A stretch of DNA of 12,234 nucleotides. It comes from a bacterium (GTDB lineage Bacteria; BMS3Abin14). The stretch is taken from positions 2,601,678-2,613,911 of the forward strand of contig CP070719.1 of the NCBI GenBank assembly GCA_020350725.1, read 5' to 3'. Below the pieces are notes generated by a model that saw only the letters and a program-made list of their open reading frames with translations, was not told the DNA's origin and ran no database searches. Positions 6,229 through 10,327 of the stretch are shown here, piece by piece; position 1 is the stretch's first letter; each line of letters opens with the position of its first letter. The position numbers and the translations under genes are program-made.

Positions 6229-6419
6229 TCCCCCCTCCTTATTTATAAGAGCCGAGAGCTCATTCGGGACAGGCCCCTTTGTACCACGGTCGGATTCCGG
6301 TGACAATCGGGCCCGACGGAGCGAGGCGGGCATTTCCCATCCCGGCAAGACACCGATGATGAAATAATGCACAGGATGCGTTATATATGTAGATCATTAT
6401 TTTTATGGGGAGGTTTCCG
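6229..6419. promoter_or_regulatory. Divergent promoter region, permease / cytochrome
   Basis: This 191-base gap separates divergent genes, so it must drive both. An AT-rich core lies at 6381-6405 (TTATATATG, CATTATTTTTATG). No clear -35/-10 pair can be fixed. The permease side is a leader of about 130 bases with GC-rich complementary segments; no purine riboswitch consensus was found. Confidence 0.35.
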
Positions 6420-6881
6420 GTGAGCATTGGACGTCGAGGTCTCTTACTGATGGTGTTTCTTGTCGCCCTTGCGATCCATACGGTTTCGGCACAGGAGAAT
6501 ATCGACCCCCACGACAACGATCCGGCAAATTGCATCCGCTGCCACACCAGGATCCCCACCCCGGAGGAAGCGGCCGACGACGAGTGGTTCCTGGTCAGGG
6601 ACACCATCGACGGCACCTGCCATCTGTGCCATCCCTACGACTGCTGCCGGATCAACTCCCTCAAGGGCCACAACCACCCCAGCAACGTCAGCCGGTGGGA
6701 CGTCGAGGATTTCACCGAACCGAGGAACCTTCCCCTGCATCAGGGTCTCATCACCTGCAACACCTGCCATTACCACCTGAGGCCGTCCGGCGAGGACCAC
6801 AGGATGGTCCGGATCGTCCGGATAACCCTCAGGGGTGTGGATTGGTCGGCCCTCTGCCTCGACTGTCATGTGGGATACTGA
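6420..6881 (+). CDS. Secreted tetraheme cytochrome c
   Basis: A 153-residue protein with a signal peptide (SIGRRGLLLMVFLVALAIHT, cleavage near VSA|QEN) and four CXXCH heme-binding motifs: CIRCH 38-42, CHLCH 67-71, CNTCH 113-117 and CLDCH 146-150. A GHNHPSN block at 83-89 and other histidines could supply distal heme ligands. It should be a periplasmic multiheme electron carrier, as in sulfur- or metal-respiring bacteria; its partner is unknown. The GTG at 6420 is preferred over ATG 6405 because GGGGAGG precedes it by 6 bases. It is not close to cytochrome c3 in motif spacing. Extra cysteines at 75-76 (DCC) are unusual. It stands alone, divergent from the permease. Confidence 0.88.
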   Translation: MSIGRRGLLLMVFLVALAIHTVSAQENIDPHDNDPANCIRCHTRIPTPEEAADDEWFLVRDTIDGTCHLCHPYDCCRINSLKGHNHPSNVSRWDVEDFTEPRNLPLHQGLITCNTCHYHLRPSGEDHRMVRIVRITLRGVDWSALCLDCHVGY

Positions 6882-8311: not shown

Positions 8312-8803
8312 ATGACACCGAGGAGAATGCTTGTCGTCCTGCTGGCACTGTGCCTGGCGGTCCTCTCGCCGGCTGGCGCCTGGGCCCTGAACGTGGGGGA
8401 TAAAGCGCCCCTGTTCAAGGCGAACTCGAACAGGGGGCAGGTCAGCCTGGAGGACTACCTGGGCGGGAAATACGTGGTCCTCGCTTTTTACTTCGCCATC
8501 AACACACCGGCGTGAAAGAGCACCGTCCTGGCCTTCAAGCGTGATATCGAGACGTTCGAAGGCCTCAACACCCAGGTTCTGGGTGTGAGCTCAGACAGCA
8601 TGGAAACCCTGAACCGCTTCGCCGCGGAACACGGGATCACCTTCCCCCTGATCTCGGACAAAGACGGGGAGCTGAGATCCCTCTATTCGAAGCAGAGGAT
8701 CAACTACCTGATCGACAGGGACGGTACCATCAGGCTGATCCAGAGGGGCGTGCCGGCCAACGATTATTTCATCGAGAAGATCAGGGCTATGGACAGGCGA
8801 TGA
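8312..8803 (+). CDS. Selenocysteine-containing peroxiredoxin (AhpC/TSA-like), exported
   Basis: A 163-residue protein if the in-frame TGA at 8513-8515 is read as selenocysteine (residue 68). ATG 8312 has AAAGGAGG just upstream and begins a signal peptide (MTPRRMLVVLLALCLAVLSP, cleavage near AWA|LNV). The mature domain is thioredoxin-fold: VGDKAPLFKANSNRGQVSLE, YVVLAFYFAINTPA-U68, then KSTVLAFKRDIETF, QVLGVSSDS, ITFPLISDKDGEL, INYLIDRDGTIR. In peroxiredoxins the peroxidatic Cys sits in FY-x-x-x-x-TPxC; here the TGA falls exactly at that C. Both sides are open and family-like, so a decayed pseudogene is unlikely. The mature protein has no Cys, so Sec would be its only redox residue and an external reductant must resolve it. 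Likely role: peroxide reduction in the periplasm. First gene of the cluster to 11355. Confidence 0.85.
8530..8564 (+). promoter_or_regulatory. Bacterial SECIS-like stem-loop after the UGA
   Basis: GGCCTTC (8530-8536) pairs perfectly with GAAGGCC (8558-8564). Above a mismatch, A8538-U8556, G8539-U8555, C8540-G8554, G8541-C8553 and U8542-A8552 extend the helix to a 9-base apical loop GAUAUCGAG (8543-8551). The loop starts with G and is 27 bases after the UGA. Bacterial SECIS elements are known to have a short apical loop with a G in its first two bases, some 16-37 bases after the UGA, bound by SelB; this one fits. Confidence 0.72.
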
Positions 8804-8837: not shown

Positions 8838-9392
8838 ATGCGGTGTTCTCCGGTCCTCCCTCTTCTTCTGGGAGTCCTGGTCCTTGCGGTGCCCACGGAG
8901 GCTTCGGCGGCGAGGAAAATGTTCCCCAAGACCCCTTCCGGAAAGATCGAGATCAAGACGATCCCCCCTTCCGTCCTTTTGACCACCGAGATGGAGGGAG
9001 ACTATTTTGACAGGTCCAACGACCTTTTCCGTCGCCTGTTCGATTACATCAAATCCAACAGCGTGTCGATGACGGCCCCCGTCGAGGGATATCTCGACGG
9101 GGCCGGCATGTCCTTCTACGTCGGGCCGGAGGACCGGGAAAGAGGGCTTGCGGACCAGGGCGGGGTGGCCGTCCTCGAGGTTCCCGAGCGCCTGATTGCC
9201 GCCATCGGCGGCAGGGGGTCCTACCGGAAGAAGAATGTCATGAAGCTGAAGGGGCGGCTTGAGGAATGGCTGGAGGGTAACCCCGACTACGGGCCCGACG
9301 GGGAAGCTTACGCCGTCTTCTGGAATGCCCCTTTTATCCCCTGGTTTCTCAGGAGCCTGGAGGTCCACATCCCCGTCAGGCGGATCCGATGA
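8838..9392 (+). CDS. SOUL family heme-binding protein, exported
   Basis: A 184-residue protein from ATG 8838 (ribosome-binding site GGGAGGG 4-10 bases upstream; a TTG immediately before is less likely). The N-terminus is a signal peptide (LPLLLGVLVLAVPTEASAA). The mature part, KIEIKTIPPSVLLTTEMEGD, DLFRRLFDYIKSNSVSMTAPV, GMSFYVG, and a tail with SLEVHIPVRRIR, follows the SOUL/HBP family, including the conserved 'MT-x-PV' block and the final strand V-x-I-P-V. SOUL proteins bind heme or tetrapyrroles. It lies 34 bases after the selenoperoxiredoxin and 62 before the ChaN-like gene, probably co-transcribed. The heme ligand cannot be fixed from sequence. Confidence 0.84.
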   Translation: MRCSPVLPLLLGVLVLAVPTEASAARKMFPKTPSGKIEIKTIPPSVLLTTEMEGDYFDRSNDLFRRLFDYIKSNSVSMTAPVEGYLDGAGMSFYVGPEDRERGLADQGGVAVLEVPERLIAAIGGRGSYRKKNVMKLKGRLEEWLEGNPDYGPDGEAYAVFWNAPFIPWFLRSLEVHIPVRRIR

Positions 9393-9419
9393 GACCGTTT
9401 CCGCGGTAGGTGGCCCGTC

Positions 9420-9436
9420 AGGGGTTTTTTTCCCCT
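9420..9436 (+). other. Small hairpin with T7 loop in the SOUL-ChaN gap
   Basis: AGGGG (9420-9424) and CCCCT (9432-9436) pair around seven T residues. It lies 18 bases before ATG 9455 and just before the ribosome-binding site GGAGG. It may modulate expression of the downstream gene, but is too short to be a convincing terminator. Confidence 0.3.
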
Positions 9437-9454
9437 ATAGTGGAGGAACGACCC

Positions 9455-10327
9455 ATGTGGAGCAGTGTTGCCCCTTCCGGGAGCCGGCTCGCGGCCCTTG
9501 TCCTCGCCGGGATACTGGCAGGGAGCATAATCGCGGTCCCGGCCCTCGCCAAGGACCTCATCTTCAAGGTCGCCAGCATCGGCTCTTTGTCCCTGGACGG
9601 TCTGGTTGAGGAACTGAAGGACGTCCGGGTGGTGGTCGTCGGCGAGCAGCACGACAACCGCCTCCATCACGAGATCCAGCTCAGTATCATCAGCAGGCTC
9701 CACGAGTCCGACAGGAAGCTGGCGGTCGGATTCGAGATGTTCGGGGCCAACTCCCAGAGGGAACTCGACCTCTGGGTGGCCGGAAAGATGACGGAGGACG
9801 ATTTTTTCAAGGTCTACCTGCGCAACTGGGACCTGAACTGGTACCCCCTCTACCGTGACATCTTCGTCTACTGCCGGGAGCACGGCATCCCCATGGTGGG
9901 CCTCAACGTGCCCAGGGAGGTCGTCAGACAGGTGGCGCAGAAGGGCTTCAGTTCCCTGAGCCGCAAGCAGAGGGAAAAACTGGGATTCCTGTCCTGCGAT
10001 GTGGATGAGAGGTACCAGAGAACCCTGGCTCAGGTTCTCGGGGCCAAGGGACATGCCGGCGGAACCGTGTTCGGTCGGTTCTGCGAGGCGCAGGTGGTCT
10101 GGGATACGAGCATGGCTCTGCGGGTCATAGAATACGGCAGGGAGAACCCGGACACCGCAATGGTGGTCCTCGCCGGGACCATACACGCGTGGAAGCGGGG
10201 GATCGTGGAGCAGATCTCAAGGAGGGCGGATCTCGCCAGCCGGGTCATCCTGCCGTCCAGCGACAGCAGTTTTTTCGACTACGAGATCGCCCTGGATGAC
10301 GCAGATTACGTCTGGTGGCTGGAGTAG
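9455..10327 (+). CDS. ChaN-like heme-binding protein (Tiki/EreA superfamily), exported
   Basis: A 290-residue protein of the ChaN family (DUF399). ATG 9455 follows GGAGG; the N-terminus (SGSRLAALVLAGILAGSIIA, cleavage near ALA|KDL) is a signal peptide without a clear lipobox Cys. Key blocks are VVVVGEQHDNRLHHEIQL (GE-x-H at 63-66, with H71 and H72), VGFEMF at 91-96, LRNWDLNWYPLYRDI, VGLNVPREV and VLAGTIHAWKRGI near the C-terminus. The GExH and G-x-x-H-x-x-x-G blocks mark this superfamily; known members bind heme or act as metalloproteases. Which holds here is not clear. Two Cys (in YCREHG and FLSCDV) and a third in RFCEAQ are present. It sits 62 bases after the SOUL gene and 59 before the DUF523 gene. 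Confidence 0.86.
   Translation: MWSSVAPSGSRLAALVLAGILAGSIIAVPALAKDLIFKVASIGSLSLDGLVEELKDVRVVVVGEQHDNRLHHEIQLSIISRLHESDRKLAVGFEMFGANSQRELDLWVAGKMTEDDFFKVYLRNWDLNWYPLYRDIFVYCREHGIPMVGLNVPREVVRQVAQKGFSSLSRKQREKLGFLSCDVDERYQRTLAQVLGAKGHAGGTVFGRFCEAQVVWDTSMALRVIEYGRENPDTAMVVLAGTIHAWKRGIVEQISRRADLASRVILPSSDSSFFDYEIALDDADYVWWLE

Follow-up and report, generated by a model that had tools for sequence, protein, structure and literature searches.

The canonical peroxiredoxin active site consists of a PxxxT/SxxC motif and an arginine. Peroxiredoxins with selenocysteine (Sec) in a TxxU motif have been a recognised family since 2001, with PrxU of Eubacterium acidaminophilum as their example (Sohling et al., as cited in PMC13188914), and 43 Sec-peroxiredoxin genes were counted in the Sargasso Sea (PMC1088965). 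Here we describe a gene with an in-frame TGA that lies in a 12,234-nucleotide stretch of bacterial DNA (the window). Like PrxU and the Sargasso Sea Sec-peroxiredoxins (PMC1088965; PMC1794560), its product contains an AhpC/TSA domain and a TxxU motif with the Sec at the peroxidatic position, and a SECIS-like hairpin is found 3' of the UGA. Unlike these proteins, it has a predicted signal peptide, its mature part is free of cysteine, and the proline of the motif is replaced by phenylalanine. Its score with the PrxU model NF040737 is 42 bits, far below the equivalog cut-off of 270.

The closest sequence family is the BCP/PrxQ thioredoxin-dependent thiol peroxidase (PRK09437; PDB 3drn and 5enu), which is similar in the TPxC region, the arginine and the overall length. 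Proteins of the BCP/PrxQ type are also the closest solved structures (3drn, E = 2.6e-18). The window protein differs from this family in that it contains Sec instead of Cys, lacks both the proline and the resolving cysteine five residues on, and is predicted to be exported; it reaches 59.4 bits with the BCP/PrxQ model NF006960, compared to an equivalog cut-off of 140. A single catalytic chalcogen and the need for an external reductant are shared with the 1-Cys peroxiredoxins, which are a mechanistic class, but the window protein contains Sec, appears to be exported and is nearest in sequence to PrxQ rather than to Prx6. The Prx-like thiol:disulfide oxidoreductase selenoproteins (PMC1088965) also have Sec in an AhpC/TSA-type fold; they contain a UxxC motif, whereas the window protein has TxxU and no UxxC. 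Sec-peroxiredoxins as such are already known. What is new, judged from the sequence, is a putatively exported version whose mature part has no cysteine, which has lost the motif proline and which falls below the cut-offs of both the BCP/PrxQ and the PrxU models.

Results

The reading frame (Table 1) contains a single in-frame TGA (8513-8515, codon 68) and no TAA or TAG, and it is terminated by a TGA at 8801-8803. An earlier note on this DNA had claimed that the in-frame TGA occupies the peroxidatic position of one gene with no other stop, and that ordinary gene calling would split this gene. We agree with this reading, which is borne out by the translation, by a Pfam match that runs across the TGA and by orthologues. 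The conceptual protein of 163 residues is MTPRRMLVVLLALCLAVLSPAGAWA-LNVGDKAPLFKANS...FYFAINTPAUKSTVLAF...QRINYLIDRDG...AMDRR. Its Pfam AhpC-TSA domain covers residues 28-142 with an E value of 1.6e-27 and 96.4 bits (gathering cut-off 26), a score that places the protein in the AhpC/TSA superfamily. The only cysteine, C14, lies within the predicted signal peptide, and the mature protein contains none, as the same note had stated. An AlphaFold model built from three orthologues had a pLDDT of 50; this low confidence argues neither for nor against the fold. A search of the window against Rfam gave no match.

Table 1. Coordinates of the gene and its features in the window
Feature	Start	End	Strand	Remarks
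Shine-Dalgarno sequence AAAGGAGG	8300	8307	+	4 nt upstream of the ATG at 8312; read from sequence
Sec-containing, predicted exported, peroxiredoxin-like gene	8312	8803	+	163 codons, TGA68 = Sec; translation, Pfam AhpC-TSA, orthologues L046 and L047
Predicted signal peptide MTPRRMLVVLLALCLAVLSPAGAWA	8312	8386	+	AxA cleavage site; holds the only Cys; read from sequence
In-frame TGA = Sec68	8513	8515	+	peroxidatic position (T65-P-A-U68)
SECIS-like hairpin	8530	8564	+	outer stem 8530-8536/8558-8564; 9-nt apical loop 8543-8551, first base G
Codon of Arg129	8696	8698	+	aligned with the conserved Arg of the peroxiredoxin active site (gRvTyvID)

Orthologues were found in two other genera of the same family, one with 65% identity (L046, CP070698.1) and one with 69-71% identity (L047, CP070682.1). 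In both, the TGA occupies the corresponding codon and is the only internal stop, the N-terminus resembles a signal peptide and ends in an AxA-type site, and no cysteine follows it apart from the Sec position. Our sample of the phylum comprises 12 genomes, all in one family, and a phylum- and family-wide search detected the gene in only three of them. The three orthologues share 83 invariant alignment columns, 54 of which are past position 68. Downstream of the TGA, the Nei-Gojobori dN/dS ratios of the three pairs are 0.14-0.31, and the coding sequence 3' of the TGA is under purifying selection. The in-frame UGA is therefore flanked on both sides by conserved coding sequence, as in a selenoprotein gene.

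The gene neighborhood differs among the three genomes, and no conserved neighbors were found beside the two orthologues. Downstream in the window (8838-10327), genes for an exported SOUL haem-binding protein and a ChaN/Tiki haem-binding protein are arranged in tandem; they are not kept beside the orthologues. A small exported multihaem c-type cytochrome with CxxCH motifs (Cytochrome_C7) is encoded at 6405-6881.

We examined the peroxidatic column in 64 homologues, drawn from the lineage of the window and from other bacteria. Cys occupies it in 39 of them and Sec in the other 25, in agreement with the proposal of the earlier note that position 68 should be Cys or Sec in homologues; the column was placed by a motif search demanding C or U, which sets aside any relative with a different residue, and one such relative, L040, was left out of the count. 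Every relative closer than L040 has C or U. In L040 (G027:C38), an AhpC/TSA-like protein, the peroxidatic Cys region is replaced by TPNSAK, which suggests a non-catalytic relative or a protein of another function.

The window protein does contain the FY-x4-TPxC motif on which the earlier note relied. In the canonical motif, PxxxT/SxxC, however, a proline precedes the peroxidatic residue by seven positions, and the window protein has Phe61 at this place. Phenylalanine is found here in all three orthologues. The threonine three residues before the peroxidatic residue (T65 before U68) and the arginine (R129) are in place. Arg129, which is aligned with the arginine of the Cys homologues, is invariant in the three orthologues, as are Thr65 and Sec68. 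Among the Cys forms, 38 of 39 have the motif proline; among the Sec forms, 15 of 25 lack it. Six changes are required on the tree to account for the Sec forms without the proline, and well supported branches force at least two of them, so the pattern of proline loss is probably not the result of one single event. From this modest and uneven sample we infer a correlation between Sec and proline loss. None of the Sec forms seen has the resolving cysteine at +5 that is common among the Cys forms.

Because the motif proline is Phe61, peroxidase activity is not to be assumed. The replaced proline, the missing resolving cysteine and the long branch that carries the clade of this protein (0.97 changes per column) would also fit a selenoprotein that is no peroxidase, for example a periplasmic redox sensor, a thiol-disulfide exchanger or another redox protein. 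We consider such a function unlikely, since the three orthologues all retain Thr65, Sec68 and Arg129 from the catalytic set and UxxC, the motif used by thiol-disulfide exchangers, is absent.

Bacterial SECIS elements have a small apical loop that contains G (PMC1088965). The stem-loop just 3' of the UGA, with its G-bearing loop, fits this description and is a putative SelB site. It starts 14 nt past the UGA in each of the three orthologues. Folding of the 54 nt that begin with the TGA gave a hairpin of -18.2 kcal/mol (z = -2.5). The stem position is common to the orthologues, and two pairs are changed on both sides and still paired; this three-sequence covariation is weak alone, being reached by 42 of 500 shuffles. 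As a control, we folded 60 nt beginning at the Sec or Cys codon of the 25 Sec and 39 Cys homologues. The mean hairpin z was -1.9 after Sec codons versus 0.03 after the homologous Cys codons (Mann-Whitney p = 9e-8, only indicative because the sequences are related). The stem position was paired in 69% of cells in 22 distinct Sec sequences compared to 46% in Cys forms, and a peak at the unshifted register was obtained with the Sec forms only. A second, perfect hairpin at 8568-8586 (ACACCCAG...CTGGGTGT) lies 3' of the SECIS-like one and is invariant in the three orthologues; it encodes NTQVLGV and so may reflect protein conservation only.

The genome that carries the window is one contig of 2,777,163 bases and is estimated to be 100% complete. 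It contains selB (367 bits, cut-off 242; E = 8e-110), an adjoining selA (600 bits; E = 2e-180) and a tRNA-Sec with anticodon UCA (74 bits). Its selD has an in-frame TGA of its own, in the N-terminal QAAGUAAK motif. Thus selA, selB, selC (tRNA-Sec) and selD, the genes that the earlier note proposed to look for, are all present, so that this organism would be expected to decode UGA as Sec. The selD locus (L049, G000:C1:1315718-1316350) is itself a selenoprotein gene, and a portion of its 3' end appears as masked bases (N) in the data used.

An in-frame TGA at which ordinary gene callers would split the gene could also mark a former Cys peroxiredoxin broken by a nonsense mutation. The presence of the same TGA in three genera, the purifying selection downstream, the full Sec machinery and the conserved hairpin make a pseudogene very improbable. 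A sequencing or assembly error, with TGC or TGT read as TGA, has even less in its favor. The codon is one base from a Cys codon and the assembly is of metagenome type, but CP070698.1 and CP070682.1 have TGA at the identical position in proteins that are 30-35% different, and the hairpin follows. Three separately assembled genomes from three genera share the TGA, so the error at this codon that the earlier note had considered is not credible. A conserved TGA, the dN/dS values of 0.14-0.31 and 83 invariant columns are not expected of a pseudogene or of a sequencing error. Genome-wide recoding of TGA to another amino acid (e.g. Trp), for which no supporting evidence was found, has a negligible probability, because, in the homologues examined, in-frame TGAs occur at Cys-aligned or known Sec positions, the gene itself ends at a TGA where its orthologues end, and tRNA-Sec UCA, SelA, SelB and SelD are present. 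We reject all three explanations. Chance is excluded because the two orthologues in other genera keep the TGA and the codon changes after it are those of a selected protein. Based on the Sec machinery, the conserved TGA, the downstream selection, the hairpin and the column that holds only Cys or Sec, we conclude that the TGA is read as selenocysteine.

By eye, the N-terminus resembles a signal peptide, with a hydrophobic core and an AxA site, and the architecture is equal in both orthologues. A23 and A25 at the predicted cleavage site are invariant in the orthologues, and RR is found in the N-termini of two of the three. General secretion appears to be the likeliest route of export, and the Tat route may be possible. 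Further exported-looking Sec peroxiredoxins with no other Cys nearby were found (L059, L060, L063, L088; another small phylum), and also L076; export of a Sec peroxiredoxin would thus not be unique to this gene. Our literature search found no paper on the export of Sec peroxiredoxins, and neither the periplasm nor signal peptides come up in the 2026 review (PMC13188914).

Discussion

Our results indicate that this is almost certainly an intact gene for an antioxidant-type enzyme, predicted to be exported, with selenocysteine as its only reactive residue. The machinery, the hairpin and the conservation suggest that SelB, bound to the hairpin just past the UGA, would deliver Sec-tRNA at codon 68. 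The product would be exported via its N-terminal signal peptide, as predicted from the sequence, and then adopt the AhpC/TSA fold. Judging from the fold family and from three of the four active-site residues, Sec68 together with Thr65 and Arg129 would most likely reduce periplasmic hydroperoxides. As the mature protein lacks any further thiol, the reductant of the oxidised selenium must be another molecule, and the selenium would be reduced from outside as in a 1-Cys peroxiredoxin. It would follow from the sequence that Sec68 is the only catalytic residue and that the resolving thiol comes from elsewhere, as the earlier note had proposed. Taken as a whole, an intact selenoprotein gene whose exported product has an AhpC/TSA (PrxQ/BCP-like) fold and in which Sec68 most likely reduces periplasmic hydroperoxides in a 1-Cys-like cycle is a reading that we consider likely.

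The genome contains a second exported selenoprotein, a fusion of a DsbA-like domain and a peroxiredoxin (1454865-1456070; L083:1366-2571) with two in-frame TGAs. Its Sec sites are DFM-U-PFC in the DsbA-like part and FTPT-U-SGQ in the peroxiredoxin part. No NCBIfam model matched the fusion above its cut-off, the best being NF041057 (80 vs. 190 bits). This double selenoprotein fusion (also L108-L114) is found in 8 of the 12 genomes of the family, and none of the three genomes with the window gene lacks it. The UPFC domain might act as the reductant of the window protein, which makes the fusion a plausible candidate partner. A search of the genome (G000) detected no homologue of DsbD/CcdA, and we rejected DsbD/CcdA as the electron source on this ground. 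One might imagine a periplasmic selenium-to-selenium peroxide relay, in which the thiol-free peroxiredoxin is recycled by the double-Sec fusion without a DsbD-type reductase and in which Sec permits the loss of both the resolving cysteine and the motif proline. We regard this relay as quite improbable.

This gene, complete and conserved, would be overlooked by standard annotation; it comes from a poorly known phylum represented by 12 genomes. It may serve as a clean case in which selenium is the only reactive atom of an exported peroxiredoxin, out of reach of the usual cytoplasmic thioredoxin. Proline loss is frequent in Sec forms and hardly ever found in Cys forms, and this makes the question of what Sec allows beyond Cys testable.
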